From Marinicella sediminis (lineage in GTDB: Bacteria; Pseudomonadota; Gammaproteobacteria; Xanthomonadales; Marinicellaceae), in the NCBI RefSeq assembly GCF_002000055.1, contig NZ_MVBD01000005.1, positions 186,001-250,000 on the forward strand: 64,000 nucleotides of DNA, in the 5' to 3' direction. Below the pieces are notes generated by a model, which saw nothing but the letters and a program-made list of their open reading frames with translations, searched no databases and was not told the DNA's origin. A program made the translations under genes and the position numbers. How positions within the stretch are numbered: the first letter of the stretch is position 1; each line of letters opens with the position of its first letter. Positions 20,014 through 34,895 of the stretch are shown in pieces.

Positions 20014-21756
20014 CTATGACAGGGCTTTGGGAACCCGGATTGACTCAACCAGGTGCTGGATTTCAGCGGGTGGTGGAGCGGTTACTTTGCTCACAATGAT
20101 GGCCACTGCGAAGTTCAGCATCATACCCAGGGTGCCGATACCTTCAGGTGAAATACCAAACCACCAGTGCTCAGCGTTGTTGAGTTCAAGGTGCATGAAC
20201 TTGAAGTAAATGATGTAGCTGAGGGTGAAGACAATGCCTACGATCATCCCAGCAATGGCTCCGGTTTTATTGGCCTTTTTACTGAAGATACCCAATAAGA
20301 TGGCAGGGAACAATGAAGAGGCGGCCAGCCCAAAGGCCAGGGCGACCACCTGGGCGACAAATCCCGGCGGATTGTACCCCAGATATCCGGCAACCAGCAC
20401 CGCAAAGGCAGCAGCCATTCGGCCCACCATCAATTCTTTTTTCTCAGATATTTGTGGCACAAATACCCCTTTGACCAGATCATGGGAGATCGCGGCGGAA
20501 ATCACCAGTAATAAACCGGCTGCGGTGGAGAGGGCTGCCGCGATGCCACCGGCTGCCACCAGTGCGATTACCCAGTTTGGTAGCTGGGCAATTTCAGGGT
20601 TAGCCAGTACCATGATGTCACGATCCACTTTCAGTTCATTGCCTTGCCAGCCATAGCTGTCGGCCTTGGCTTTGAAGGCTTCATTCTTGTCATTGTAATA
20701 CTGTATACGCCCGTCGCCGTTTTTATCCTCAAAAGTCAACAGTCCGGTTTGTTCCCAGGTATTGAACCAGGCGGGTTTCTGGCTGTACTCAATGTTACCT
20801 GTGGCAGTGCCCACTTCACCCGGTTGAATGGTTTCAATCAGGTTCATACGTCCCAGAGCGCCAACAGCAGGTGCTGTGGTGTAAAGAATTGAAATGAACA
20901 ACAAGGCCCAGAATGCAGATTTTCGGGCATCAGCCACCTTAGGTACCGTGAAAAAGCGCACGATGACATGAGGCAAACCAGCCGTGCCTACCATCAGTGC
21001 TGCGGTGATGAAAAACACATCAACGGTACTTTTGGAACCTTCGGTGTATTCGGTAAAGCCCAAAGATTGCACCACACTGTCGAGTTTACTGAGCAGATAC
21101 ATGCCTTCGCCCGTCATTTCACTGCCAAAGGCCAATTGTGGTATGGGGTTGCCTGTGGCTTGCAGCGAGATAAAGATGGCCGGTACCATGTAAGCGAAAA
21201 TCAATACGCAGTATTGAGCCACCTGGGTATAGGTGATGCCTTTCATGCCACCCAAAACGGCATAAAAGAACACGATCCCCATGCCAATGATCAGGCCGGT
21301 GAGGATTTCAACTTCCAAAAATCGCGAAAACACGATGCCCACACCACGCATCTGTCCGGCCACATAGGTGAACGAAATGATGATCAGACACACCACCGCA
21401 ACGATGCGTGCAGTTTTGGAGTAATAGCGGTCGCCGATGAATTGAGGCACGGTGAATTTACCAAATTTACGTAAATAAGGTGCCAATAGCAGGGCAAGCA
21501 ATACATAGCCACCGGTCCAACCCATCAGGTACACAGACGCATCATAGCCGGCAAAGGCAATGATGCCTGCCATGGAGATGAATGAAGCCGCTGACATCCA
21601 GTCGGCAGCAGTGGCCATGCCATTGGCGATCGGGTTGACGCCTTTGCCGGCCACATAAAAGTCACCTGTGCTGCGGGCCTTTGACCAAATGGCGATGCCA
21701 ATGTACAGGGCAAATGAAAGCACCACAACAACGATGGTTAATGTTTTGAGTTCCAT
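20014..21756 (-). CDS. actP: sodium:solute symporter, ActP-like (acetate uptake)
   Basis: The 580-residue protein belongs to the SSS/SLC5 family. It has a predicted 13-14 helices and the opening segment STGDFYVAGKGVNPIANGMA that is typical of ActP-type and VC_2705-type permeases. It carries short-chain monocarboxylates, most likely acetate, across the inner membrane with Na+. A charged insert of about 90 residues between helices (around 305-395, with KNGDGRIQYY) is also known from this subfamily. It lies 3 nt downstream of the DUF4212 gene and beside crbS, crbR and acs, which supports acetate as substrate. Confidence 0.88.
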   Translation of the reverse strand: MELKTLTIVVVVLSFALYIGIAIWSKARSTGDFYVAGKGVNPIANGMATAADWMSAASFISMAGIIAFAGYDASVYLMGWTGGYVLLALLLAPYLRKFGKFTVPQFIGDRYYSKTARIVAVVCLIIISFTYVAGQMRGVGIVFSRFLEVEILTGLIIGMGIVFFYAVLGGMKGITYTQVAQYCVLIFAYMVPAIFISLQATGNPIPQLAFGSEMTGEGMYLLSKLDSVVQSLGFTEYTEGSKSTVDVFFITAALMVGTAGLPHVIVRFFTVPKVADARKSAFWALLFISILYTTAPAVGALGRMNLIETIQPGEVGTATGNIEYSQKPAWFNTWEQTGLLTFEDKNGDGRIQYYNDKNEAFKAKADSYGWQGNELKVDRDIMVLANPEIAQLPNWVIALVAAGGIAAALSTAAGLLLVISAAISHDLVKGVFVPQISEKKELMVGRMAAAFAVLVAGYLGYNPPGFVAQVVALAFGLAASSLFPAILLGIFSKKANKTGAIAGMIVGIVFTLSYIIYFKFMHLELNNAEHWWFGISPEGIGTLGMMLNFAVAIIVSKVTAPPPAEIQHLVESIRVPKALS

Positions 21757-21759
21757 GGC

Positions 21760-22017
21760 TTATTCCTCCACGTCAAAATGCTTGTCCAGCGTGTTCATGC
21801 GCTTGACGTAAATCCAAATCAACAGCAGGAACACATACAGTGAACCTTGTTGGGCCATCCAGAATCCGAGCTTAAATCCAGCAAACTGAATCTGATTCAA
21901 TACATCCACCAGCAGGATGCCGCACACAAAGGAAACCACGAACCAGATCGACAGCAATATGCCCATCAGTTTTAGGTTGGCTTTCCAGTATTCGTCATGA
22001 TTGTTCGTTGATGACAT
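21760..22017 (-). CDS. DUF4212 small symporter subunit
   Basis: I start at the ATG at 22017 (85 residues) because GAGGG precedes it; a start 30 nt upstream would add a poor leader. Two transmembrane helices are clear (LLSIWFVVSFVCGILLV and GSLYVFLLLIWIYV), with the family feature FWMAQQGS between them. DUF4212 proteins are almost always encoded directly before an SSS symporter and are thought to be its small partner. This one sits 3 nt before the ActP-like gene. Confidence 0.9.
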   Translation of the reverse strand: MSSTNNHDEYWKANLKLMGILLSIWFVVSFVCGILLVDVLNQIQFAGFKLGFWMAQQGSLYVFLLLIWIYVKRMNTLDKHFDVEE

Positions 22018-22074
22018 GATACCCTCATAAAAATTAAGTGCCTTCAATGTATCAAAATCACCATGCCAATGATC

Positions 22075-22093
22075 TTAGACTTTGGTCTCAGAC
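22075..22093 (-). promoter_or_regulatory. proposed CrbR site 1, upstream of DUF4212-actP
   Basis: The 19-mer TTAGACTTTGGTCTCAGAC (plus strand) reads on the gene strand with the core ACCAAAGTCTAA, including an AGAC/GTCT inverted repeat. Its centre is ~35.5 nt from a -10-like TACATT (gene strand, plus positions 22046-22051). A near copy lies before acs and a weaker one before the porin, at matching distances. Confidence 0.6.
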
Positions 22094-22100
22094 GTTTGTG

Positions 22101-22130
22101 TTACACAGCATATGGTCACTGTGCTATGAT
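22101..22130 (+). promoter_or_regulatory. promoter of the crbS gene
   Basis: A -35 TTACAC (22101-22106) and a -10 TATGAT (22125-22130) are separated by 18 nt, about 63 nt before the ATG. The overlapping palindrome TGTGTTACACA and the CACAG...CTGTG repeat at 22104-22123 could bind a further regulator. Confidence 0.5.
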
Positions 22131-22193
22131 AAAACTCTTCTAACAAAGTCATTGGATTCAATCACTTGTCGGTTTTATTTAGGATAATTTGTC

Positions 22194-25100
22194 ATGCTTT
22201 CTGAATATGGTGTCTACGCCATTTTGGTGGTGTATATTGGTTTGATGTACCTCATTGCCCGCTGGGGCGATGGTCTGGATTTGCACCGCCGGCCAAAGTT
22301 AAGAACGTGGATTTATGGCCTCTCACTGGCTGTTTACTGTACGTCATGGACTTTTTTTGGCGCGGTGGGTACTGCAGCCAGTAAGGGCTGGGATTTTCTA
22401 CCCATTTATCTGGGGCCGTTGTTGTTGTTTACCATTGGTTGGCCGTTGGTGGTGAAAATCATCAAACGCAGCAAAGCCAACAACATCACTTCGATTGCGG
22501 ATTTCATCGCCAGTTTATATGGGAAATCACGACGCATTGCGGTGTTGGTGACTGTCATTGCGGTGCTGGCGGCCATTCCGTACATTACCCTACAGTTGGA
22601 GGCCATCATAGCCAGTATTGAAGTCATCAGCATTGACAGCAATACAGATCAATCGGCAAGTATCAGTGCTTTACTGGTAACCGCTTTGTTGGCGTTTTTC
22701 TCCACCGCTTTTGGTACCCGAAAGCTGGATGTGACTGAGCACCATCGTGGCTTAATGATGGCCATCGCGTTTGAGTCAGCCCTGAAAATAGTGGCTTTCA
22801 TTGCCGTTGGACTGTTTGTGTTTTTTGTGGTTTACGCCGGACCGGGTGAAGTGCTTCAGGCAGGAGCGAAATGGACAGCCATCGCCAACGGCCCTAACTT
22901 GTCGGTGAATTTTTTATCCCAGTCGATGTTGGCGTTGTTGGTTTTTATGTGTTTGCCCCGGCAATTTCATGTCACCGTGGTGGAAAATGAAAGCCTTGAT
23001 GACCTTGGTAAAGCCCGTTATATTTTCATTGTTTACTTATTGGTCTTCACCTTGTTTGTCATTCCCATTGCCATGGCGGGCAATGCCTTCTTACCGGCAT
23101 CAGTGGATTCTGATCAGTTTGTTTTGCAACTGCCTTTGGCCTTTGACAACAATTGGCTGACCTTGCTGGTATTTCTTGGCGGTATGGCTGCGGCATCAGG
23201 GATGGTCATCATTTCAACCATTGCATTGAGCACCATGGTCAGTAATGACCTGGTCTTACCGCTGTATCTGAAACTCAAGAACTATCATTTGCGCCGCAAA
23301 GACGGCCTTAAACATGTGGTACTGTGGAGCAGGCGAATCAGTATTTTTGCCATCAGTCTGGCCGCTTATGTGTTTTACCTGTTGGTTCACAACAGCGTGC
23401 CACTGGCGGCCATGGGGAACTTATCATTTCTATTGATGGTGCAGTTTGCCCCGGCCATGTTGCTTGGTATGTATTGGCGACGATCGAATAAGCAAGCCGC
23501 TTTTGCCGGAATGCTGGCAGGCGTATTGGCCTGGGCCTGGATGGTGATGATGCCTGCGCCGATAGCGGGTGTGCCCAGCATGAACGCCGGTATCATGACC
23601 AGCCTCGCTCAGTTGACCAGTTCCCAGCCCCCATTGTTTAAGTTATTTGCAGTGACGTTTTTATGCAATATGCTGGTGCACATTGGTTATGCATTGATTT
23701 CCGGGTGGTGGCAACAACGTCAGGACAATCACCACGATGACCGGCCAATGGATCTGGCTGGTGATCACATGACGGTGGCTGATTTAAAGCAAGTGGTGAG
23801 AAAATTAGTGGGTTTCCGTTTTGCCAATACGGCCTTTACCCATTTTGCACAGAATCTGGAAGGGTCAATGCAGGACACTGATCAGGTAACCACGCCAATG
23901 ATACAGTTTACTGAAAAGCTATTGGCCGGTTCCATTGGGTCATCATCCGCCCGTGCAGTGATCACTGCCATGCTGAAAAGCAAAGGACTGGCAGTGGATG
24001 AAATCATCGGCCTGCTGGATGAAACCAAAGCCGCTATCAAGTTCAACCGCAACCTGACTGAGGCCACGCTGGATAACATCTCCCAGGGGGTGAGTGTGGT
24101 CGATGACAACCTGCAGCTGGTGGCCTGGAACAAGCAATACATAGAATTGTTGAATTATCCAGAAGGCTTCATTAAGCGCGGCATGTCCATAGAGGAAGTG
24201 CTGTTGTTCAATGCAGAGCGGGGATTACTTCAGGCTGAATATGTTCGCCCTGAGATAGAAAAACGCATGGTTCATTTGCGACAAAGGCGACGGTATCAGT
24301 CAGAACGACAGTTTGATAATGGCAAGGTTCTCCAGATTGAAGGTCATCCGATGCCCAATGGTGGCTATGTGACCACTTATAATGATGTCACACAATACAA
24401 AAAAGCGCAGCAAGATCTGATTGAAAGCCGCCAGCATATTCAATTCTATACCGATCATTCACCTGCCATGTTGGCCTACCTCAGTGCAGATCAGACATTG
24501 CATTTTGTCAACAAAGCTTATGAACAATTTTTGGGGATGAACCGTGCTGAATTAACCGGTAAGAAACTGACTGATATTTTTGATTCGGTTGAGTTGGCCA
24601 AACGAAAGCCCTATCTTGATGCTGCATTTTCCGGACAAACCCAATCATTTGAGTTAGAGCTGGCTGATCCTGCCGGTGTTCAGCACTTTATGTTGGGGAC
24701 CTATGTTCCGGATGTGCAAAACCAAAAAGTGGCCGGGGTGTTTGTCATCATGCAAGACATCAGTACCCGTCGAAAAGCAGAGCTGGAACTGGAAAAAAGC
24801 CGGGCCAACCTGGAACAAAGGGTGGCGGAACGCACCGAAGAACTTTCACACATCAATGCAGAACTTGCAGCTGCCACCAGACAAGCCCAGCAAGCCAATC
24901 AGTCGAAAACCAAATTCATTGCCGATGCCAGTCATGATTTGCTGCAACCATTCAATGCAGCCCGTTTATTCACGGCCATTCTGGCAGAAAAAACCGATGA
25001 CATGACGGCGGATGTGGCCAGTACGGTCAATAGCCTGGATCAGTCATTGCGCTCAGCTGAAAATATGCTCAGCGCACTGTTGGACATAGCGAAGCTGGAT

Positions 25101-26015
25101 GCCGGTGGGGTGCCAATCAATAACAGTGATTTTTCATTACAACCGTTGATGGTACAGCTGACCAATCAATACCGAACCAGGGCGGGAAGGAAAGGGTTGA
25201 AGTTGAGGGTGAGGACCGGTGGTCATTGGGTGCATACCGATGAGAAGTTGCTGTATCGGGTATTACAAAACCTGACCAGTAATGCCATCCGTTATACCAG
25301 CCAGGGTGGCGTATTGGTGGCCAGTCGTCGTTCAGGCCATTCAGTCCAGCTGTGGGTGATCGACACAGGTGTGGGTCTTGATGAAGCGGAACAAGTTGAA
25401 ATATTCAATGAATTCAAAAGGTTGGACAAAACTGCTGAAATGGCTGATAAAGGTTTGGGCCTGGGGTTGTCGATTGTGGACCGCATCATCAATGAGCTGG
25501 GCTTGTCACTGACAGTCAGATCCATCCCAGGTAAAGGTTCAGCTTTTATGATCTTGCTGCCTGGAGCCAAAGAAATCCCTGTTGATCACAATGATGAATC
25601 GGTCATGCTGGACCAGCGAAACAGACAAACGATGGTTCAACGGGTGATGTGTATTGATAATGAAGACAGCATTCTTGAAGGCATGCATCAGTTACTGTCG
25701 GGGTGGGGTATGGAAGTGGAGACCGCCAAAAGTGGAACAGAGGCTCACAAATTGTTATTGGACGGATTCCGGCCTGAAATATTGCTGGTGGATTATCAGC
25801 TGGATCAAGAGCTGGGCACTGATCTGGTGGGGACATTGTGTGAAACTTATGGTTTGAATTGTCCGGTAGTCATCATCACCGCGAATCACAGCGAGTCATT
25901 GAAAAAAGCCAGCCATGATGCCGGTTATCACTTATTACTGAAACCGATCAAACCAATCAAGCTTCGACAACTGATGAATCGGTTGTTACTTAATGACAGG
26001 ACTTTAAAGGGTTAA
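22194..26015 (+). CDS. crbS: CrbS-like hybrid sensor histidine kinase with SLC5 transporter domain
   Basis: The protein has 1273 residues. An N-terminal SSS/SLC5-like domain with about 12-13 helices spans residues 1-505. It is followed by PAS-type sensor regions at about 620-735 and 745-860, a coiled coil, a HisKA domain with phospho-acceptor His914 in ASHDLLQPF, a HATPase domain (NLTSNAIRYT, LGLGLSIVDRI) and a C-terminal receiver with Asp1200 in LLVDYQL. This order matches CrbS/CbrA-type kinases; in Vibrio, CrbS with CrbR turns on acetate scavenging through acs. Its 3' end overlaps crbR by 4 bp on the opposite strand. Confidence 0.87.
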   Translation: MLSEYGVYAILVVYIGLMYLIARWGDGLDLHRRPKLRTWIYGLSLAVYCTSWTFFGAVGTAASKGWDFLPIYLGPLLLFTIGWPLVVKIIKRSKANNITSIADFIASLYGKSRRIAVLVTVIAVLAAIPYITLQLEAIIASIEVISIDSNTDQSASISALLVTALLAFFSTAFGTRKLDVTEHHRGLMMAIAFESALKIVAFIAVGLFVFFVVYAGPGEVLQAGAKWTAIANGPNLSVNFLSQSMLALLVFMCLPRQFHVTVVENESLDDLGKARYIFIVYLLVFTLFVIPIAMAGNAFLPASVDSDQFVLQLPLAFDNNWLTLLVFLGGMAAASGMVIISTIALSTMVSNDLVLPLYLKLKNYHLRRKDGLKHVVLWSRRISIFAISLAAYVFYLLVHNSVPLAAMGNLSFLLMVQFAPAMLLGMYWRRSNKQAAFAGMLAGVLAWAWMVMMPAPIAGVPSMNAGIMTSLAQLTSSQPPLFKLFAVTFLCNMLVHIGYALISGWWQQRQDNHHDDRPMDLAGDHMTVADLKQVVRKLVGFRFANTAFTHFAQNLEGSMQDTDQVTTPMIQFTEKLLAGSIGSSSARAVITAMLKSKGLAVDEIIGLLDETKAAIKFNRNLTEATLDNISQGVSVVDDNLQLVAWNKQYIELLNYPEGFIKRGMSIEEVLLFNAERGLLQAEYVRPEIEKRMVHLRQRRRYQSERQFDNGKVLQIEGHPMPNGGYVTTYNDVTQYKKAQQDLIESRQHIQFYTDHSPAMLAYLSADQTLHFVNKAYEQFLGMNRAELTGKKLTDIFDSVELAKRKPYLDAAFSGQTQSFELELADPAGVQHFMLGTYVPDVQNQKVAGVFVIMQDISTRRKAELELEKSRANLEQRVAERTEELSHINAELAAATRQAQQANQSKTKFIADASHDLLQPFNAARLFTAILAEKTDDMTADVASTVNSLDQSLRSAENMLSALLDIAKLDAGGVPINNSDFSLQPLMVQLTNQYRTRAGRKGLKLRVRTGGHWVHTDEKLLYRVLQNLTSNAIRYTSQGGVLVASRRSGHSVQLWVIDTGVGLDEAEQVEIFNEFKRLDKTAEMADKGLGLGLSIVDRIINELGLSLTVRSIPGKGSAFMILLPGAKEIPVDHNDESVMLDQRNRQTMVQRVMCIDNEDSILEGMHQLLSGWGMEVETAKSGTEAHKLLLDGFRPEILLVDYQLDQELGTDLVGTLCETYGLNCPVVIITANHSESLKKASHDAGYHLLLKPIKPIKLRQLMNRLLLNDRTLKG

Positions 26016-26677
26016 TTCTGTGGCAAATCAATGGCGGACACTTTCATCACTGCCTGGGTGCGGTTGTTGACATTTAACTTCCTCATGATGGCGGTTACGT
26101 GGGCTTTAACGGTGGCCTCAGAGATGTTCAAATCATAGGCGATCTGTTTGTTCAATAACCCTTGCTTGATCAAGCACAACACCTTGTGTTGCTGCGGCGT
26201 CAGGGAAGCCACTTGTGCAGTGATGTCTGCCAATTCCTGACTGTGCTCCATGAACAATGCTTCATTGAACTGATAAGGAAAATAAGTGTTGCCTTCGAGG
26301 ACTGTTCTGATGGCTTTTCTGATGTCATCTACGCTGGCAGATTTACTGATAAAGCCCAATGCCCCAAAGTGTTTGGCATGCATGATGGTATCTGGCTTGT
26401 CATTGGCTGATATCATGATGATGGGCAAATCAGGATACTTCTTTTGAGTGAAAGCCAGGGCGGAAAAACCTTCCACCCCAGGCATATTAAGATCCAGCAA
26501 CAGCATGTCGGCGTCATGGTGGCTGCGCAGTTGGGTTTTCAATGAATCTGAACTCTCCACTTCGATGATGACGCAATTGTTCAAATCAAGGCCGAGTGAT
26601 TGCCGCAAAGCATTGCGAAACATCGGGTGGTCATCGGCGATGATGATTTTGTCTGCCAAAGGCGCCTTGTCTCTCAT
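26012..26677 (-). CDS. crbR: CrbR-like LuxR/NarL-family response regulator
   Basis: The 221-residue protein has a receiver domain with acidic pair Asp15-Asp16, phospho-acceptor Asp62 (LLLDLNMPG) and conserved Lys in FISKSAS. A C-terminal LuxR-type helix-turn-helix follows (LTPQQHKVLCLIKQGLLNKQIAYDL, here cited as positions ~155-180, ending VKAHVTAIMRKLNV). Position decides the assignment: it starts 5 nt after acs and converges on the CrbS-like kinase gene, so it is probably the partner of that kinase and activator of acs. Confidence 0.85.
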   Translation of the reverse strand: MRDKAPLADKIIIADDHPMFRNALRQSLGLDLNNCVIIEVESSDSLKTQLRSHHDADMLLLDLNMPGVEGFSALAFTQKKYPDLPIIMISANDKPDTIMHAKHFGALGFISKSASVDDIRKAIRTVLEGNTYFPYQFNEALFMEHSQELADITAQVASLTPQQHKVLCLIKQGLLNKQIAYDLNISEATVKAHVTAIMRKLNVNNRTQAVMKVSAIDLPQN

Positions 26678-26682
26678 GGTGA

Positions 26683-28623
26683 TTAAGAGTTCAGCCGATT
26701 ATTGATCAGGTGAGTCACCACTTCGGGCTCAGCCAGGGTTGATGTGTCTCCAAGGTGATCATGCTCATTGGCGGCAATTTTGCGCAAGATGCGGCGCATG
26801 ATTTTACCAGATCGGGTTTTGGGTAACCCAGGGGCCCATTGTATTTTATCCGGGGTGGCAATGGGACCAATTTCTTTTCTTACCCATTGCGTCAGTTCTG
26901 CCAGTAAGTCATTGCTTTCACTGAAGCCGTTGACCAGCGTGACGTAGGCATAGATGCCTTGTCCTTTGATGTCATGTGGGTAACCAACCACCGCGGCTTC
27001 GGCCACAGCCTCATGGGCTACCAGGGCACTTTCCACTTCAGCGGTACCCATGCGATGCCCTGAGACATTGAGTACATCATCGGTTCGCCCGGTGATCCAG
27101 TAATACCCGTCTTCATCCCTTCTGGCTCCATCACCGGTGGTGTAAACATCATCAAAAGCTGAAAAATAGGTTTGGTAAAAGCGTTCATGGTCGCCAAAAA
27201 CAGTGCGCATCTGACCTGGCCAGGAATCGGTGATGACCAGATTACCTGCGCCTTCGCCGGTCAGTTCATGACCGTCGTTGTCCAGCAAGGCAGGTTTTAT
27301 ACCAAAAAATGGCCGGGTGGCTGAGCCTGGTTTGAGGTCAGTGGCTCCGGGTAATGGTGTGATCATGATGCCGCCGGTTTCAGTTTGCCACCAGGTGTCT
27401 ACGATGGGACAACGTTCATCTCCCACCACTTCATAATACCATTTCCAGGCTTCCGGGTTGATCGGTTCACCCACAGAACCGAGTACCCTCAGTGATGACC
27501 TGGAGGTTGAATGAACAGGGGCGTCTCCTTCTTTCATCAGCGCCCGGATGGCCGTAGGTGCGGTGTAACACACATTCACCTGGTGTTTGTCACAGATTTG
27601 CCAGAACCGGCTGTGGTCCGGATAGTTGGGCACCCCTTCGAACATCAAAGTGGTGGCGCCGTTGGCCAATGGTCCATAGACCACATAGCTGTGACCAGTG
27701 ATCCAGCCGACATCAGCCGTGCACCAATAAACATCATCTGCATGTATGTCAAATACATATTCATGCGTCATGGATGCGTAAACCAGGTACCCCCCTGAGG
27801 TATGCAACACCCCTTTTGGCTGTCCTGTTGAGCCTGAGGTATAGAGGATGAACAAGGGGTCTTCAGCATTCATGGGTTCAGCCGGGCAATCAGCTGAAAC
27901 CGAGCTGCTGAGCTCATGGTACCAGTGATCATGCTCTTGCCAGTCAATGACCTGATCTGAGGTTTTGATCACCAAGACGGATTGCAGATAATCTTTGACA
28001 CCTGGTTTCTCAGTTGCTTTGTCGACATTGGCTTTCAAGGGAATGGCTTTGTTGCCTCGAACACCGCGGTCAGCTGTGATGACCAGCTTGGATTTGCAAT
28101 TAATGATCCGATCACCCAAAGCATCAGGGGAAAACCCGCCGAAGACGACTGAATGAATGGCGCCAATCCTGGCACAAGCCAACATGGCATATGCTGCTTC
28201 AGGAATCATTGGCATATATAAGGTCACCCGGTCACCTTTCTCTACACCCAGTTTTTTCAGGGTATTGGCAAATCGACAAACTTCTTCATGTAATTGGGCA
28301 TAGCTGATGTGCTTTGCTGATGCCGGATCATCGCCTTCCCAAATGATGGCGGTTTGATCGGCTTTGTCTGGTAAATGCCGGTCAACACAGTTATGACAAA
28401 CATTCAGCTCACCATCGGCATACCAGCGGATGTGTAAATCATCCCTGGAAAAAGACACATCTTTGACTTCAGAATAGGGTTTGAACCAGTCCAGTCTTTT
28501 GCCTTGTTCTCGCCAAAAATCTTCATTATTATCAATGCTTTGCTGATACATTTTCAAGTATTGATCGTTGTCACATAAGGCGTCATTGCGGAAATCAGGA
28601 TTCACTGGATATCTTGTTTTCAT
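26683..28623 (-). CDS. acs: acetyl-CoA synthetase (AMP-forming)
   Basis: I use the ATG at 28623 (646 residues, the usual length); a GTG 30 nt upstream is less likely. The enzyme activates acetate with ATP and CoA through acetyl-AMP. Adenylate-forming motifs are intact: [41 protein letters not shown], and the C-terminal [11 protein letters not shown], whose Lys is the known site of regulatory acetylation in Acs. crbR follows at 5 nt and is probably cotranscribed. A predicted CrbR site lies 58 nt upstream. Confidence 0.96.
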
Positions 28624-28680
28624 GGCTATTCTCTGCGTTGATTTGTTGCTCACTATGCCACCGATTCTGTGCGGGACACA

Positions 28681-28699
28681 TTAGACATTGGTCTTAGAT
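28681..28699 (-). promoter_or_regulatory. proposed CrbR site 2, upstream of acs
   Basis: TTAGACATTGGTCTTAGAT matches the site before DUF4212-actP at 16 of 19 positions, with gene-strand core ACCAATGTCTAA. Its centre is ~35.5 nt from a -10-like CATAGT (gene strand, plus positions 28652-28657), so it would sit near -45, a typical activator position. Confidence 0.62.
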
Positions 28700-28707
28700 G
28701 CAGGTAT

Positions 28708-29112
28708 TTAATTCATCCCGGGAAATGAACTGACCTTTCTAACTTCAATGTCCGGGAACGAGTCCACCACCTGCACTGTGAAGTCTGGAAATGAAGTGAC
28801 TTCCTGCCATTGGCCACAGTCATCGGGAAAGGATGAAACGAACTGTACATCGATGTCACCGAATGAACTGACATATTTGATTTTCAAATCAGGAAAGGAG
28901 TCTACAAACTGAACCTTACCTTTCAATTCAATGCCATTGTGATGACAGTTCTGGGTTGATTGTTCCGCTTTTTTTGCAGCCGGTTTGGATGAGTTATTGG
29001 CCATCATTGATTTTCCCGGACTGACCGGTAATTGTCTGGATTGATTCTCACTGATGCCGATCAGAATGATGACAGCAATTACCGCTGCTGCAATTTTCAA
29101 GTCTTTGTTCAT
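28708..29112 (-). CDS. small exported or membrane-anchored SFPD-repeat protein
   Basis: This 134-residue protein has an N-terminal hydrophobic helix (IAAAVIAVIILIGI) and a polar linker. From about residue 62 there are six short repeats of ~11 residues built on V-x-S/D-S-F-P-D: VQFVDSFPD, IKYVSSFGD, VQFVSSFPD, EVTSFPD, VQVVDSFPD and VRKVSSFPG. A CGQW insertion falls between repeats three and four, with a second Cys earlier (NCHHNG). The pattern reminds me of the small family described as a 7(1) septoil knot, which I recall but could not verify. Function is unknown. It lies between acs and the exonuclease gene. Confidence 0.75.
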   Translation of the reverse strand: MNKDLKIAAAVIAVIILIGISENQSRQLPVSPGKSMMANNSSKPAAKKAEQSTQNCHHNGIELKGKVQFVDSFPDLKIKYVSSFGDIDVQFVSSFPDDCGQWQEVTSFPDFTVQVVDSFPDIEVRKVSSFPGMN

Positions 29113-29149
29113 TGGATGCCCCGCTTTTGGTTTGCTGGCTGAATGTTTT

Positions 29150-29839
29150 TCAGCTCAGTATGTGCTTTAATTTTAGCGGGAATCCATTGGCCTGTCGATG
29201 GCTGATTTGTGCCAGGAATAACTCAGCAGTGGCCACGGCGTCCTCCAGGGCATTGTGGGCATGGTAGCGTGGTAAATGGTAACTGGTGCGCAAGTTAAAC
29301 AGCCTCAATTGATTGACACTGATGGGTAGGTTAAGACGTTGCAGGCGATGCTGTTCAATTTTCAACGTGTCGGCCATGCGCATAGGCAGGTGGTGTCCAT
29401 ACAGATTGTGACTGAGGTGTTGGATGAACTGGTATTCAATGGCCTGGTGATGGGCAATGATAACCTTGCCGGCCATTTGTTGTAACAACACGTTCATCAT
29501 TTCTTCGACAGCCATGCCTTGTTGTAACTGATCATCGGTGATCTGGTGAATGCTGACGCTCTCGCTGGTCAGTTTTTTATCGGTACTGATCAACTGATGC
29601 AGACTGTTTTTTAATTGAATGCGCATGTCACTGATGTGAGTGTAGCCCATGCTGATGATGTGATCGGATTGGGCATTCAGTCCAGTGGTTTCAAAGTCAA
29701 GTACCAGGAACTGTGTTTTACTGATCGGTTGTTGCGGGTCAGGTAAAGGGGTCATCAGATAATTCTTCAGTTGACCACTGGGGCGGTTCTTCAAGGCCCG
29801 GTTGAGCAACTGTTGTTGTTTGTCCCTGAAAAAAAACAC
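29150..29839 (-). CDS. DEDDh 3'-5' exonuclease (DnaQ/PolC-epsilon-like)
   Basis: The 229-residue protein has the DEDDh active-site pattern: DFETTG (ExoI), an Asp/His region near IIAHHQAIEYQFI (ExoII) and HNALEDAVATAEL (ExoIII). These enzymes remove nucleotides from DNA or RNA 3' ends. It starts with GTG, 4 nt after the stop of the cNMP/CBS/DUF294 gene; no closer ATG would preserve the domain. The pair DUF294 plus exonuclease next to actP genes recurs in gammaproteobacteria as I recall, but why is not known to me. Confidence 0.85.
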   Translation of the reverse strand: MFFFRDKQQQLLNRALKNRPSGQLKNYLMTPLPDPQQPISKTQFLVLDFETTGLNAQSDHIISMGYTHISDMRIQLKNSLHQLISTDKKLTSESVSIHQITDDQLQQGMAVEEMMNVLLQQMAGKVIIAHHQAIEYQFIQHLSHNLYGHHLPMRMADTLKIEQHRLQRLNLPISVNQLRLFNLRTSYHLPRYHAHNALEDAVATAELFLAQISHRQANGFPLKLKHILS

Positions 29840-29843
29840 CTGT

Positions 29844-31706
29844 TCAGCCCAATTGCCCCTGGTTGTACTTCTGAGTCACCACATCCTGATACGTTCTGAT
29901 CAGTTCAAAAGCATCTTTGAGGTGTCGGCGTTCCAGGGATGACAGTTCATCAGGATTGATGTAATTGTTGGCCTCCTGACCGCGTTTGATGTTTCTGACC
30001 TGGTGTTGCAGCCTGATCAGGCTCAGCAATTCAAAACTGTCACGCAAGTCTACGGCTGCTTCATTTGAAATGACGCCGGATTCACTGGCCCGTTTGATGC
30101 GTTCCAAAGTGTTAATGACCTCGGTACCGGCATCCAGGGCAAAAACCCTGGCAATGTCAGTGCAGGGCATGATGCCGCGTTTTTTGATGTCCAGGGTTTT
30201 GTGTTCCGCACCATGTTGTTCAAGTACAAACCGGCGAAACAGACCCAATGGCGGTTTATTTTGTTGGGCATTGGCAGCCATAAAGGCCAGGAATAACCGG
30301 TTGTTACGGGTCAGTTCTCTGATGTGCTGCTGGAGCTGGTCAAACAAGGATTGATCACCATAAACACAACGCAAATCAAAGAAAATGCTGGAGTACATCA
30401 GGGCTTTGGGCTCGGGTGAATTGATCCAGCCGTCAAAATAGTGTTGCCACTGAGCCAGTGGCTGACGCCATTTGGGGTTGCTGGCCATCACATCACCAGG
30501 GCAGAACACATAGCCGCAGCGGTTCAGGTGTTCACTGACCTGTTCACTTAACTGGGCAAAGTATTCACCGTGCAGACTGGCATCGAACTGATCAGACAGC
30601 AACAGACCATTGTCCTGATCTGAATGAGCAGTCTGGTCATTGCGGGCCAGTGAACCGGCCACCATGTAGGCAAATGGTACCGGTGCTGGCCCCAGTTCCC
30701 GGACGCACAATTCAATCACTTTGCTGGCAAAGGCGCGGCCGATGGAACTGATGGAATATGCAATGTCGCTGGCATTCAGGCCTGCATCCACTTGTTTGGT
30801 CAGAACCACTGGTAATTGCTGGCTGAGTTGTGGTAATTGTGACAGTGATTGACTCTTATGAATTTGGTTAACCAGGTATATGGGGTTATGACTTTGGTGA
30901 TGCATCAGGTCAGTTGCTGTGACCATTCCAAGCAGTTGTCCGTCTTCAACCACTGGTAAATGCCTGATGTTCATCCGGGTCATCAGCAGCATGGCCTCCA
31001 GACCGCTGTGCCGTCGATCAATGCTGATCGGCTCTGGTGTCATTACGCTGGCAATCGGTTGTTGGGTGTCCAGACCCATGGCCACCACTTTGGTGCAAAA
31101 CAGCCGGTCTGTGACAATGCCTTTGATACCGGTTTCATCGATCACCAGCGCCGCGGTTTGATGGCTGTTCTTCATTTGCAATGCCGCATCGGCGATGCTG
31201 TCTTGCTGTTGTAATGTCAGCACTTCCTGGTGCATGAAGTCAGCGGCTTTGGATTTAATCAGGCTGTTTTCAGGTGGGCTCCTGAGTAACTGCAAGGCGC
31301 TTTTCAGGCGCTCATGCTTTTGTTGACTGAAATACTGATTGAAGGCTTGGTTGTTCTCCATCAATTTGCGGTATCGGGCTTTGGGAATCAGGTAAAACAA
31401 ACTGTCTTCAATTGTGCTGACCCGGTTTTTGATGATGCCACCACGCTCAATGGCGCGGTGTCCGAAAAAATCTTTTTGGCCAAACTGGGCAACCAGACCG
31501 TCATTGTGGTCAGTGCGGGTCACCGCGCCAGACCTGATCAGGTACAGCCATTCGTTGTGCTGACCTGGTTCCAGAACCGTTTGGTTTCTGGAGAAATAAG
31601 TGATTTCTATGTTTTCAGCCAGTTCTTTTAATTCATCAGAGGATAATTGATTAAGTGGGTGGCAAAGCAGTAAGAAATCATGAATTTCCAGTTGTTCAAT
31701 TTCCAT
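29844..31706 (-). CDS. cNMP-binding / CBS / DUF294 nucleotidyltransferase-like protein
   Basis: The 620-residue protein shows a cyclic-nucleotide-binding domain at about 8-125 (LEPGQHNEWLYLIRSGAVTR), two CBS motifs at about 155-275 (SIADAALQMKN, GIVTDRLF, MNIRHLPVVEDGQLLGMVTA), a DUF294 nucleotidyltransferase-like domain with GSLARNDQTAHSDQDNGLL, and a helical C-terminal domain. GlnD-like chemistry is possible but the reaction is unproven. It starts within TGATG, overlapping the upstream stop by one base, so translation is probably coupled. Nucleotide sensing that tunes acetate metabolism is an inference from position. Confidence 0.85.
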   Translation of the reverse strand: MEIEQLEIHDFLLLCHPLNQLSSDELKELAENIEITYFSRNQTVLEPGQHNEWLYLIRSGAVTRTDHNDGLVAQFGQKDFFGHRAIERGGIIKNRVSTIEDSLFYLIPKARYRKLMENNQAFNQYFSQQKHERLKSALQLLRSPPENSLIKSKAADFMHQEVLTLQQQDSIADAALQMKNSHQTAALVIDETGIKGIVTDRLFCTKVVAMGLDTQQPIASVMTPEPISIDRRHSGLEAMLLMTRMNIRHLPVVEDGQLLGMVTATDLMHHQSHNPIYLVNQIHKSQSLSQLPQLSQQLPVVLTKQVDAGLNASDIAYSISSIGRAFASKVIELCVRELGPAPVPFAYMVAGSLARNDQTAHSDQDNGLLLSDQFDASLHGEYFAQLSEQVSEHLNRCGYVFCPGDVMASNPKWRQPLAQWQHYFDGWINSPEPKALMYSSIFFDLRCVYGDQSLFDQLQQHIRELTRNNRLFLAFMAANAQQNKPPLGLFRRFVLEQHGAEHKTLDIKKRGIMPCTDIARVFALDAGTEVINTLERIKRASESGVISNEAAVDLRDSFELLSLIRLQHQVRNIKRGQEANNYINPDELSSLERRHLKDAFELIRTYQDVVTQKYNQGQLG

Positions 31707-32140
31707 CAGAACCTCACAGCAGTCTCAGTATAAAGGGCGTCGCCAGACAGATTAAAGGCCAGTCTGAGTTGGTTAAATGACTTCAACTGGTCCTCTGGAG
31801 AAAGCTTGATTTGCCAATATTTTCCATCATCGCTTTTCATCAATGGGAATTGTCGGAACGTCTGGTCACTGCCAAGTGCCACACTCAGATCGTTGATGGG
31901 TTGGTTGCTGATGAAGGCCAGTTGCTGCTGTTGTTGCTTGTCAGCACTGAGTAATTTAAGTTCAAACTGACCGTGGGTCATCAGGCAGGCATTTTCTGTG
32001 GGCTGGCAGGAGCCAATAACCAGTAAACGGCCTTTTCCGCGCTCAGTTTGTTCAGGCGTAACCAGTAAGCCAGTGATGGCATAAGACAACAATGCCAATA
32101 CCGGGGCCATGAAAAATGCAATTTTTAAATGTCTGTTCAT
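31706..32140 (-). CDS. membrane-anchored hypothetical protein of the actP/DUF294 cluster
   Basis: The 144-residue protein has one N-terminal helix (IAFFMAPVLALLSYAITGLLV) and an exported beta-rich domain with two Cys (GSCQPTENAC) that might form a disulphide. I do not recognise a named family. Its stop shares a base with the ATG of the DUF294 gene, so it is the first gene of a three-gene unit. The Shine-Dalgarno region is weak. Confidence 0.75.
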   Translation of the reverse strand: MNRHLKIAFFMAPVLALLSYAITGLLVTPEQTERGKGRLLVIGSCQPTENACLMTHGQFELKLLSADKQQQQQLAFISNQPINDLSVALGSDQTFRQFPLMKSDDGKYWQIKLSPEDQLKSFNQLRLAFNLSGDALYTETAVRF

Positions 32141-32171
32141 CTGGTTATTTTATGTCAATTTTAAGTGCAAA

Positions 32172-32195
32172 AAGAGGCTCAATAATGAGCCTCTT
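32172..32195 (-). terminator. terminator of the porin gene
   Basis: A perfect 10-bp stem (AAGAGGCTCA / TGAGCCTCTT) with an ATAA loop. On the minus strand it is followed by a short T-run. It separates the porin from the DUF294 unit. Confidence 0.75.
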
Positions 32196-32220
32196 GACTG
32201 GTGATCAGCTAAAACCTGTA

Positions 32221-33507
32221 TCAGAATGCATATTTGGCACTGAAAATCAGCCGGTTTAACTCACCATCAGTGCCATTTTCCAATTCCCGTTTACCGTGCA
32301 GAAAACCAATACCTAAGGTGATTTTACTGGCTGGTGAATACATCAGGTTGAGCTGTGCGCTTTGTGAAGATTTGGTCACACCCAATCCGGTGTAATCCCG
32401 GTTGTTATCAATGTCTATGCGGGAGAGGATGAAGCTGGAGCGCAGTTTGTCATTCCAGTGATGGCGGTAAGCCACTGCCACAGCTGTAGAGTCAATGGCG
32501 TCCAGCGAACCATTGTCGGTAATCACTGCACCGTTGGCTGTGTTCAAACCAACGTAACGACCCATGCCAGATCCCGAAGCCAGATTGAATTTCAAGTCAT
32601 CTTTATCGCCAATATTGAATTTGCCGGTCAGGCTTAAGCCAAATGAGGTTTCACTTTCGTTATTGCCTACCACATCGTATTCCAGGCTTCTGACCAATCC
32701 GGCCACAGCCACATGGCCCCAATCGGCTTTGTGGGTGTATTTAGCCACCAGATCAGGCATGCCATTGTCGTCTGAAACGATGCGGCCACCACCGCCAAAC
32801 GGGGTGATGGTTGATTCAGGGTTTTCCAGGGCCAGTTGCCAGGGACCATTGGTGTATCGAACCATGGCTTGTCTTTCAAACACAATGCCATCTGATGCAG
32901 CCAGAAAATCTGCTGATTCAGGCAGGGCGCCGACATCCTGAAAGGTACTCCAGGTTTGGCCAAACAACCAATTATTGTAGGTCAGGAAAGCATGTCTCAT
33001 ACGTGGTTGATAGGAATTACTCACCCGTTCATTACCACTTGGTGGGAGCAGGAAATCCATTTCTATGAACGTGCCTAATTTATCACCATTGGCCAGCACA
33101 TGACTGCTTTTGAAATTGATTCTGGATTCTTTGGCGCCCAAATCAAAATCTGTGCTTTCGCCTTCACCACCCACTGGTATGGTGCCAGGAATGTAAAAGT
33201 CCCTGCCGGCTGAACCACTGGCCAGATCACCATCGCTGTAGGCAGAAAAAGAGGCAGTGGCTTTGACAAATCCGCCAAAAGAATAATTATGTTGTTCTGC
33301 GCTTTTGCTGTCCTCTTTGGCGGTGGATTTGGCAGCCGGAGCGCTGTCTGGTTTGTCAGCCACCTCCTTCTTCAGTTCCATCAGCATGGCTTCCAATGAA
33401 GCAATTTTGGCTTCCAGCTGCTGGTACTTGCTGTCTTCAGCCAGGGCGCCACCACTGAACAGAGCGGTAGATACGGCCACAGCCAACAGTTTTTTATTGA
33501 ATTTCAT
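32221..33507 (-). CDS. DcaP-like trimeric outer-membrane porin
   Basis: The 428-residue protein begins with a signal peptide (KLLAVAVSTALFSGGALA), followed by a coiled coil (YQQLEAKIASLEAMLMELKK) that would form a trimeric periplasmic extension, then a 16-stranded-type barrel opening with YSFGGFVKATASFSAYSDGD and ending in the terminal Phe of AKYAF. These match DcaP-like porins, which admit negatively charged small molecules such as dicarboxylates. GGAGG precedes the ATG. A diverged copy of the proposed CrbR site lies upstream, which would tie it to acetate use. Confidence 0.85.
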   Translation of the reverse strand: MKFNKKLLAVAVSTALFSGGALAEDSKYQQLEAKIASLEAMLMELKKEVADKPDSAPAAKSTAKEDSKSAEQHNYSFGGFVKATASFSAYSDGDLASGSAGRDFYIPGTIPVGGEGESTDFDLGAKESRINFKSSHVLANGDKLGTFIEMDFLLPPSGNERVSNSYQPRMRHAFLTYNNWLFGQTWSTFQDVGALPESADFLAASDGIVFERQAMVRYTNGPWQLALENPESTITPFGGGGRIVSDDNGMPDLVAKYTHKADWGHVAVAGLVRSLEYDVVGNNESETSFGLSLTGKFNIGDKDDLKFNLASGSGMGRYVGLNTANGAVITDNGSLDAIDSTAVAVAYRHHWNDKLRSSFILSRIDIDNNRDYTGLGVTKSSQSAQLNLMYSPASKITLGIGFLHGKRELENGTDGELNRLIFSAKYAF

Positions 33508-33564
33508 AACATCCTCCAGATAAACGATGATGTCATGTTATGCAAAAGGACAGGTGACTGACTA

Positions 33565-33583
33565 TTAGCCTTTGGTTTATACG
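33565..33583 (-). promoter_or_regulatory. proposed CrbR site 3, upstream of the DcaP-like porin
   Basis: TTAGCCTTTGGTTTATACG keeps the gene-strand core ACCAAAGGCTAA, a diverged form of the two stronger sites. Its centre is ~34.5 nt from a -10-like CATAAC (plus positions 33537-33542), the same geometry as the acs and actP promoters. Confidence 0.45.
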
Positions 33584-33595
33584 ACTAAAGGCTAA
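33565..33595. repeat. inverted repeat downstream of the small membrane protein gene
   Basis: Arms TTAGCCTTTGGT (33565-33576) and ACTAAAGGCTAA (33584-33595) match at 11 of 12 positions around a 7-nt centre. It abuts the stop of the small membrane-protein gene and overlaps the proposed third CrbR site. It could be a mRNA-end hairpin or a doubled operator. There is no T-run. Confidence 0.6.
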
Positions 33596-33596
33596 G

Positions 33597-33884
33597 TTAT
33601 TTTCTGAAGACCATTGTCAGAATGGCAACGGCATATGCGGCCATGATTTTTTCATCCAGCAACAATTGCTTGCCATTCAGCATTTCAACGGTATCAGATA
33701 CCAGTTGGAGTACCACGCCCAGTAACAGCAACATCCCTGCGGCGTGGATCTTTTGTCTGGAGAAGAACCGGCCATTGATTTCATACTGTTTGCCATCCGG
33801 TTGTTGCAAAGCCTGTTTGATGGCCACACCAGCGATGATCAGGGCGATAAATAAACTCAGGTATTCACTGTAAAAATCCTGCAT
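33597..33884 (-). CDS. small integral membrane protein, unknown
   Basis: The 95-residue protein has about three hydrophobic helices (LSLFIALIIAGVAI, AAGMLLLLGVVLQLVSDTV, MAAYAVAILTMVF) and no motif I recognise. It diverges from the arsR gene, whose predicted operator region it shares, and lies upstream of the porin, separated by the inverted repeat. Its composition is normal for the neighbourhood, so I treat it as a real gene of unknown role. Confidence 0.65.
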   Translation of the reverse strand: MQDFYSEYLSLFIALIIAGVAIKQALQQPDGKQYEINGRFFSRQKIHAAGMLLLLGVVLQLVSDTVEMLNGKQLLLDEKIMAAYAVAILTMVFRK

Positions 33885-33958: not shown

Positions 33959-34246
33959 ATGCATGAACAACCCCATCATGAATCCATGTTTCAGGCTTTG
34001 GCAGATGTTCAACGACGAAAAATATTACAGATCCTGAAACACAAAGAGCAATCGGTGGCTGAAATTAAAACGCACTTTGATTTCAGTGGAGCGACTTTGT
34101 CGCATCACCTGAATGTGCTCAAACAGGCTGATCTGGTTAGGGTCAGAAGGGAAGGGCAAAAACGAATTTATACCTTGAACCTGAGTGTGGTAGAAGAGTT
34201 GTTGCTGATGTTTAATGAAATGTTTAAGCGAGGACAAAATGACTGA
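33959..34246 (+). CDS. ArsR-family repressor, SdpR-like
   Basis: The 95-residue protein is one winged helix-turn-helix domain (ADVQRRKILQILKHKEQSV, FSGATLSHHLNVLKQADLV, RREGQKRIYTLN). No ArsR metal-binding Cys-x-Cys is present, so it is probably not a metal sensor. The next gene encodes an SdpI-family protein, and ArsR-SdpI pairs are known as SdpR/SdpI autoregulated units, with repressor sequestered at the membrane in Bacillus. It overlaps the next gene by 8 nt. Confidence 0.88.
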   Translation: MHEQPHHESMFQALADVQRRKILQILKHKEQSVAEIKTHFDFSGATLSHHLNVLKQADLVRVRREGQKRIYTLNLSVVEELLLMFNEMFKRGQND

Positions 34247-34895
34247 GAAAAAAGACCGTAAAACCCTGTTTGCAGTGGTTGCAGTGGTGCTTGTCACCTG
34301 GTTAGTGGCTTTTGTGTACGAGCCTGGATTACCAGAGCAGGTGCCCAGCCACTGGAACATACATGGTGAAGTTGATGGTTATATGGCCAAGCCATGGGGG
34401 GTGTTTTTTATGCCATTGCTTTCCACCGGTATGAGTATTTTGCTGTGGATTTTGCCGATGATTGCCCCCAAAGGATTCAAGCTGGACAATGCCCGTTCAG
34501 TGTATGAGTTGCTGGTGTTAATCATTGCTTTGTTTATGCTGGGCGTCATGGTATTGACTTTTGAAGCAGGTCTCAATGACCAGGTGGATATGAATCAATG
34601 GATGATGGTTGGCATAGGAGCCTTGTTTTTAATTCTTGGAAATTACCTGAGTAAGGTCCCAAAAAATTTCTTCATAGGTATCAAAACGCCCTGGACCCTT
34701 GCCTCTGATGAAGTTTGGTATAAGACCCATCGGCTGGGATCATGGACGTTTTTCATTGCCGGTCTTTTGGTGATCTTGGGCGGATTTTTGCAATGGCCTT
34801 TTGGCTGGATGATCGGCTTGCTGGTGGCAGCTGGGGTGATTCCGTTGATCTATTCACTGGTGATTTATAAAAAAATAGAAGGATTTAAAGAATGA
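34239..34895 (+). CDS. SdpI-family membrane protein (DUF1648)
   Basis: I start at the ATG at 34239 (218 residues), which has AGGA upstream and overlaps the arsR stop. An N-terminal DUF1648 region carries VPSHWNIHGEVDGYM. The C-terminal SdpI part has NYLSKVPKNFFIGIKTPWTL and TWxxTHRLGSW-like residues (VWYKTHRLGSWTFF), with about six helices in all. SdpI gives immunity to the SDP toxin in Bacillus; here no toxin gene is near, so a general envelope or signalling role is more cautious. Confidence 0.85.
   Translation: MTEKKDRKTLFAVVAVVLVTWLVAFVYEPGLPEQVPSHWNIHGEVDGYMAKPWGVFFMPLLSTGMSILLWILPMIAPKGFKLDNARSVYELLVLIIALFMLGVMVLTFEAGLNDQVDMNQWMMVGIGALFLILGNYLSKVPKNFFIGIKTPWTLASDEVWYKTHRLGSWTFFIAGLLVILGGFLQWPFGWMIGLLVAAGVIPLIYSLVIYKKIEGFKE

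Follow-up and report, generated by a model that had tools for sequence, protein, structure and literature searches.

A window of 64,000 nucleotides from the genome of Marinicella sediminis (NCBI RefSeq assembly GCF_002000055.1, contig NZ_MVBD01000005.1, positions 186,001 to 250,000) contains genes for a CrbS-like sensor kinase and a CrbR-like response regulator together with acetyl-CoA synthetase (acs), a DUF4212-type symporter and a DcaP-like outer-membrane porin. Based on its promoter and those of its relatives, the porin gene is very probably controlled directly by the CrbS/CrbR acetate switch. The assignment of the porin to a CrbR regulon, proposed in the initial annotation of the window, is supported by two comparisons. 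A site resembling the published CrbR motif was found upstream of 34 of 37 close homologues of the porin (39–100% identical) and of none of 12 distant ones (24–32% identical), and in an independent sample of the class a strong site directly precedes the porin gene in six of eight genomes with CrbR and in none of six genomes lacking it. As far as the compared genomes tell, the tie between porin and CrbR is thus widespread. The sites, their geometry and conservation, the co-occurrence of porin and regulator and the gene neighbourhood are read from the DNA itself, and binding and activation by CrbR, co-transcription, cooperativity and the passage of acetate are what we infer from them.

The starting point was formed by three 19-bp sites at 22075-22093, 28681-28699 and 33565-33583, which lie exactly where the initial annotation had placed them and each carry the gene-strand core ACCAA[AT]G[TG]CTAA without deviation. 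The view that they represent one shared motif stands, but the motif is not new, as it was published by Sepulveda and Lupas under the name ACTU (PMC5715377; cited papers are quoted here from their accessible text). ACTU is an imperfect inverted repeat at −52 to −36 of the Pseudomonas fluorescens acs gene; for four acetate genes taken together, 91 of 112 promoters contain it. Activation of P. fluorescens acs by CrbR requires it, and four point mutations abolish the activity (PMC5715377). The published strings, TACTACCATCGTCGAAT for acs and TACTACCAAAGTCTAAT predicted for cheV (PMC5715377), share their core with the window sites. Judged by sequence, the sites before acs and the DUF4212 gene are ordinary ACTU sites, while that before the porin gene, which lacks one of the canonical GAC...GT[C/A] halves, is a weaker relative. 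The porin promoter was also described too simply: the site reported there is real, but it is accompanied by a second one, previously overlooked, whose centre lies 15 bp further upstream, and in the relatives the proximal site of the pair is usually non-canonical.

The genome scan proposed earlier was performed on relatives with a 16-bp palindromic matrix, which was seeded on 4 published sites and then built from 27 acs/DUF4212 upstream regions of CrbR-bearing relatives and zero porin upstream regions; the acs upstream regions of genomes G036, G040, G057 and G065 and those of genomes off the list of CrbR carriers were excluded from the training. All 49 porin matches were scored, and each porin-site call has a shuffle p of 0.01–0.03 (floor 0.01). 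The acs gene served as a built-in control: a site precedes it in 9/9 CrbR-bearing family genomes read (10 have CrbR, G018 being unread; in G005 the site is found about 290 nt from the aligned start), and in 0/10 members of the genus without CrbR (10 of 11 read; best score 5.1). The background is low, with none of 437 control tiles (256 from the window, 181 from DUF294 coding sequence) reaching 7.4. In a third background set consisting of gltA loci, 4 of 330 tiles score at least 12, which originate from two sites, the gltA site of G003 and a position in G004 distant from the start of gltA.

The site might mainly serve another gene, the porin being a bystander, either of the DUF294 operon downstream of it or, elsewhere, of a divergent acs. 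DUF294 lies downstream of the porin gene and has no ACTU site within 350 nt upstream in the window (best score −9.1), and among the verified CrbR targets of P. fluorescens is PFLU5625, whose domains are of the cAMP-binding, CBS and nucleotidyltransferase kinds (PMC5715377). Moreover, 21 of the 34 site-positive porin genes are divergent from acs, and one of the sites found there is probably that of acs itself. Against this, 20 of these 21 intergenic regions hold at least two sites, a site is likewise present in 13 of 16 porin genes not divergent from acs, and the spacing between proximal site and porin −10 is maintained in lineages with DUF294 at another location. We therefore consider a bystander role of the porin improbable.

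The class-wide comparison leads to the same target. The porin (E<=1e-50) was detected in 19 of 369 genomes drawn from the class; 14 of these were new and 8 of the 14 encode CrbR (E<=1e-30), the loci L175, L176 and L186 having been skipped in the site scoring as repeats of genomes already scored. The best score upstream of the porin in the CrbR-free new genomes is 5.5, and the difference between the two groups is significant (Fisher p 0.0097). In one CrbR-bearing genome (G218) the porin gene stands behind acs on one strand, and sites scoring 21.9 and 16.5 precede acs. There are eleven additional named loci; three of them (L031-L033) were taken as repeats of G005, G015 and G008, and all eight counted as further loci, from Aliikangiella, Pseudoalteromonas, Cellvibrio, Arenicella, Pseudomaricurvus, Ferrimonas and two metagenome-assembled genomes, have a site scoring at least 8 within 420 nt upstream of the porin gene.

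Co-occurrence and gene neighbourhood point in the same direction. The family sample of 33 genomes has the porin in 9/10 members with CrbR and 0/23 without (Fisher p 2.6e-7, uncorrected for shared ancestry or linkage). CrbR without the porin was encountered only in G018, whose CrbR is 48% identical, and the porin without CrbR in no family genome. Genes for acs, crbR, crbS, the DUF4212-symporter or DUF294 lie within 1.5 kb of the porin gene in 26 of 30 loci and such acetate-cluster genes within 7 kb in all eight further named loci, a neighbourhood that extends to genomes well beyond the order; weak actP, crbS and crbR matches, e.g. a 33% symporter match beside L028, were filtered out of these counts. 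Even in five of the six CrbR-free class genomes the porin gene adjoins acs (L179, L180), DUF294 (L182, L183) or the symporter gene (L207), only L185 having no acs, DUF294 or symporter neighbour that we could find. The presence of the porin in acetate neighbourhoods even without CrbR points to a regulator-independent role in acetate metabolism. Within the genus, 11 genomes (G001, G002, G006, G007, G009, G011-G014, G016, G017) keep acs, and neither CrbR, the porin nor DUF294 was found in them at the cut-offs used. Judging from gene content, members of the genus have acquired or lost much of the acetate cluster as one block.

At the nucleotide level, conservation in the porin promoter centres on the proximal site. 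Alignment of nine family porin upstream regions gave a mean identity of 57% and 19 invariant columns, 12 of which coincide with the proximal site and its TA tail (ACYAAWGGCTAATA) and 4 with the −10 element; the site itself is kept in 9/9 genomes. In 29 of 40 genomes its promoter-side half reads GGC, a variant present in 12 of 14 families; GTC occurs in 4/40 and GAC, GGT, ATC or GAA in 7/40. Among acs/DUF4212 sites GGC occurs in 0/32, the departing position always being T (GTC 25, GTA 7). These counts comprise acs/DUF4212 sites scoring at least 10 and porin sites scoring above 4.5, with the 11 named loci left out; at an equal cut-off of at least 10, GGC is found in 19/27 porin sites versus 0/32 acs/DUF4212 sites. 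The GGC half is not a search artefact because the matrix penalises it. In the eight further named loci, the nearest listed site has GGC in L034 and L039 only. The conservation of a weak half beside a strong site suggests that this promoter may respond at a set threshold.

This preference of the porin site for GGC, absent from the acs/DUF4212 sites, could also be taken to mean that the porin promoter is operated by a regulator other than CrbR, either a relative of it or one with the same half-site, and a second NarL-type paralogue (C7:47775, 38% identical) is indeed encoded in the genome. However, the left half of the porin site and its distance to the −10 are of the ACTU type, the class-level porin sites go with CrbR, and most porin promoters possess a second ACTU-like site as well, so that we regard the involvement of another regulator as highly improbable.

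This second site was detected in 34 of 40 porin promoters; in 30 of these 34 it outscores the first. The spacing varies between 15 and 167 bp, and roughly two thirds of the second sites lie 15–42 bp away. In the family, where porin and acs are not divergent, the second site is positioned at exactly 15 bp in 6/9 genomes; it is absent in G004 and G028, and in G030 a second site lies at 114 bp. Helical phasing of the two sites was considered and rejected, as the spacings follow no single phase. The two porin sites of the window together make up a 12-bp inverted repeat (33565-33595) whose loop measures 7 nt. It is hardly credible that this sequence is merely the stem of an intrinsic terminator or RNA hairpin resembling the acs site by chance. 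On the + strand a hairpin overlapping the sites, just past the point where the gene at 33597-33884 stops, was flagged as terminator-like, which speaks for such a stem and against an activator site. But the scan flagged none at this place on the strand that carries the upstream gene, the sites recur at porin promoters of other families, many of them between divergent acs and porin genes, and the idea is largely refuted by the loss of the far arm in G004, G028 and G030 while the porin-side arm is retained throughout the family.

The three window promoters share one geometry. The −10-like hexamer starts 31 or 32 nt downstream of the site centre (Table 1), which bears out the earlier claim of a common distance; the value of 32 for the window porin is due to one base which the other eight family genomes lack, their offset being 31. 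Averaged over the promoters, the −10 score is highest at offset 31, the best of all offsets, in each of four sets: family porins (9, z 3.7), other porins (35, z 3.5), acs (13, z 4.0) and DUF4212 (19, z 4.3); L031-L033 and G068/G074 (near-identical to G053) were left out of these sets. Likewise, the distance from site centre to start codon is 65.5 nt in all three genes, given ATG starts at 22017 (DUF4212), 28623 (acs) and 33507 (porin), the first two being chosen instead of the longer open reading frame (ORF) starts. The stretch expected to form the −35 element abuts the site and, read by eye, matches poorly, the usual picture for an activator bound next to the polymerase. As judged by the −10 offset, the porin site would thus fit the published ACTU slot at about −52 to −36.

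Several observations weigh against regulation of the porin by CrbR or weaken individual arguments for it. Taken alone, the proximal site of the window is inconspicuous, as its matrix score of 5.1 ranks sixth in the window and 8 of the 437 control tiles reach a score of 5; moreover, both porin sites of M. sediminis are without one canonical half. Genome-wide pattern counts offer no help. The exact 12-mer core has 4 matches in the whole genome (3.99 Mb), 3 of them being the window sites, but the argument runs in a circle, those three having supplied the pattern; with at most one mismatch there are 104 matches versus 140 for the reversed control and hence no enrichment. Since the exact matches are the defining sites and the one-mismatch counts stay below the control, the 12-mer count is not taken as evidence. 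A degenerate 16-mer has 25 palindromic places in the genome, 3 inside the window, and the control count of 329 offers no fair comparison, since reversal gives a pattern of different composition; with at most one mismatch 4 were seen, 3 in the window, versus roughly 8 expected by a coarse estimate. Of the 22 places outside the window 20 were inspected, and 12 of these lie inside ORFs of at least 100 aa. The case for the porin proximal site as a regulatory element is consequently a comparative one and does not rest on its score in a single genome.

The comparison itself has exceptions. No site was found upstream of three of the 37 close porin homologues (L029, L030, L130); in L029 and L030 no acetate gene adjoins the porin gene, and L130 is too short to judge. 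The CrbR-bearing class genome G356 has no recognisable site upstream of its porin gene, which stands beside crbR. Conversely, sites precede acs in G029 (12.3) and DUF4212 in G047 (18.3), in which no CrbR was found, G029 being only 74% complete and only 36 of 62 candidates having been scored for G047. The co-occurrence of porin and CrbR partly reflects joint gain or loss through physical linkage. The regulator of the window has ErdR (NF041830, a model typed 'exception') as its best NCBIfam match (E=1.9e-70), but its 236.9 bits fall below the cut-off of 390. Finally, most of the ErdR targets tested in Pseudomonas aeruginosa rose upon erdR deletion, i.e. they are repressed (PMC9927353), and in the accessible text on Pseudomonas putida no shift of the acsA-I promoter by ErdR was seen; activation of the porin gene is therefore not to be taken for granted.

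Table 1. Features of the acetate cluster in the Marinicella sediminis window (window coordinates; site sequences on the gene strand)
Feature	Position	Strand	Characteristics
Canonical ACTU site before DUF4212-symporter	22075..22090	-	TGAGACCAAAGTCTAA; matrix score 19.0, window best
Canonical ACTU site before acs	28681..28696	-	TAAGACCAATGTCTAA; matrix score 17.3, second in window
Porin proximal ACTU-like site	33565..33580	-	ATAAACCAAAGGCTAA; promoter-side half GGC, not GT[C/A]
Porin distal ACTU-like site	33580..33595	-	TTAGCCTTTAGTCGTA; score 12.9, third in window
DUF4212 -10-like hexamer	22046..22051	-	TACATT; offset 31 from site centre
acs -10-like hexamer	28652..28657	-	CATAGT; offset 31 from site centre
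Porin -10-like hexamer	33535..33540	-	TAACAT; offset 32 from site centre
DcaP-family outer-membrane porin, 428 aa	32221..33507	-	Pfam PF19577 E=2.4e-24, 86.6 bits (cut-off 27)
CrbR/ErdR-like response regulator	26012..26677	-	REC + LuxR-type HTH; Pfam Response_reg, GerE
CrbS-like hybrid kinase	22194..26015	+	SSF symporter domain, PAS, HisKA, HATPase, REC; Pfam
acs, acetyl-CoA synthetase	26683..28653	-	TIGR02188 1017 bits, cut-off 725; likely ATG 28623
VC_2705-family sodium/solute symporter	20014..21756	-	TIGR03648 869 bits, cut-off 321; under ActP cut-offs
DUF4212 symporter small subunit	21760..22047	-	TIGR03647 114 bits, cut-off 26; likely ATG 22017
cNMP-binding/CBS/DUF294 protein	29844..31706	-	Pfam; domain kinds like CrbR target PFLU5625
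Small protein between porin and DUF294	31706..32140	-	homologue in same place in 8/9 family loci

The protein families encoded in the cluster are listed in Table 1. The porin belongs to the DcaP family, its match covering positions 55-410 of the 410 in the profile, and matches a DcaP-like protein of solved structure (PDB 6eus, E=3.3e-22). The kinase shows the CrbS architecture, in which PAS, HisKA, HATPase and REC domains are joined to an SLC5 symporter domain, although the linking STAC domain was not reported in the Pfam search. The crbR gene is linked to acs, which it follows. The name actP given earlier to the large symporter gene is not borne out, as the protein scores as a VC_2705-type symporter and well under the ActP models.

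In the window the porin gene is followed by the small protein, which has no Pfam or NCBIfam match, DUF294 and an exonuclease, with gaps of at most 80 nt. The order of porin, small protein (hyp144) and DUF294 recurs in 7/9 family loci, L002 ending at a contig edge and G008 being without DUF294. The porin gene thus probably heads an operon including DUF294, which would be co-transcribed from the porin promoter in this genome. A site of its own for DUF294 was examined as a candidate and rejected, the best score being 5.1 in 19 of 28 matches, those whose upstream region was read. In Pseudomaricurvus (L040) the module of small protein, DUF294 and exonuclease (window 29150-32140) follows the symporter gene, and it seems, on gene order, that the module changed promoters between two CrbR-type operons. 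A 134-aa protein with repeated SFPD motifs and no Pfam family is encoded between exonuclease and acs (28708-29112) and is 87-92% identical over the matched part in L031 and L033. Further away, a gene which we take to encode a small ArsR-like regulator is overlapped by one for a presumed membrane protein (33959-34895), divergent from the porin's upstream neighbour, and the region 35525-38980 encodes a 1151-aa protein with several similar tandem repeats of about 200 residues (VTPEVIFGTGNSNG...).

A further target might be gltA. In genome G000 an ACTU-like site with a score of 17.0 (TTAGACCAAGGTATGA; L161:2061-2076 = G000:C23:76460-76475) is located 134 nt upstream of a gene which, from the look of its protein, we take to be citrate-synthase-like gltA. 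The site is also present in G003 and weakly (4.5) in G005, and was absent from the other 4 of 7 CrbR-bearing genomes in which gltA was found and from 10 CrbR-free genomes. Its distance to the −10 differs from that of the other promoters, and gltA is presented as a lead only.

The most closely related characterised system is CrbS/CrbR (MxtR/ErdR, AcsR) of P. fluorescens SBW25 (PMC5715377), which shares with the present one the SLC5-domain hybrid kinase, the LuxR/NarL-type regulator, acs and symporter targets, the ACTU palindrome next to the promoter and the PFLU5625-type target. The present system differs in its porin with tandem sites and a usually non-canonical proximal half; Table 4 of PMC5715377 lists no porin among the proven or predicted CrbR targets of SBW25, and the word porin appears in that paper a single time, among the references. 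The porin resembles in sequence family the DcaP porins of Acinetobacter (PDB 6eus; preprint PMC12338516), which are outer-membrane channels for carboxylic acids; those serve di- and tricarboxylic acids, whereas the present clade sits in acetate clusters, and the word acetate is absent from the main text of the preprint. Related regulators are ErdR of P. aeruginosa, studied by AIDmut-Seq (PMC9927353), and EmaSR of Acinetobacter baumannii (PMC9603970, PMC10891947), which concern acetate, ethanol and symporter genes; the EmaR motif (CTTATxxxxAT type) differs from ACTU, and the word porin is absent from the main texts of these three papers, the supplementary target lists lying outside this scope. 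A review of the ped cluster names the porin PP_2662 within an alcohol-oxidation cluster. In the accessible literature on CrbR/ErdR, ACTU, DcaP and acetate regulons, subscription papers and supplements being outside its scope, no CrbR-controlled porin is reported, as applies to the available text of PMC9927353, PMC8402216, PMC5436829, PMC9603970, PMC10891947, PMC12338516, PMC4364456 and PMC12997753.

Based on these data, we propose a scenario for the switch. Once CrbS has activated CrbR, dimers of the regulator would bind to ACTU palindromes with the core GACNNNNGTC, whose centres lie about 44 bp before the transcription start, and bring RNA polymerase to promoters whose −10 element is recognisable and whose −35 element is poor. 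The acs and DUF4212-symporter genes would be controlled by a canonical site at that position, the porin gene by a conserved, weakened site at the same position and a usually stronger one further upstream. Cooperative activation or activation with a higher threshold appears to be the likely reason for the two-site arrangement. The porin promoter would also drive the downstream DUF294 gene, the counterpart of PFLU5625, and entry through the outer membrane, symport across the inner membrane and activation to acetyl-CoA would thereby be switched on together. More speculatively, and with greater doubt than confidence, we consider that this DcaP-type porin clade might serve acetate (or short carboxylates) as a dedicated gateway through the outer membrane in gammaproteobacterial acetate clusters with or without CrbR; where CrbR is present, the strong distal ACTU site and the selectively crippled proximal GGC half might open the outer membrane only at high CrbR activity and so produce an ordered, cooperative output.

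In the accessible literature the CrbS/R switch covers uptake across the inner membrane and activation in the cytoplasm, and a porin target would add the outer membrane. The latter is usually taken as freely permeable to acetate; control of the porin would suggest that bacteria which depend on scarce acetate regulate this permeability. The GGC half-site would offer a testable case of a single regulon setting the thresholds of its promoters by one base. If true, the proposal would also assign a role to DcaP-like porins of a group so far defined by family only.

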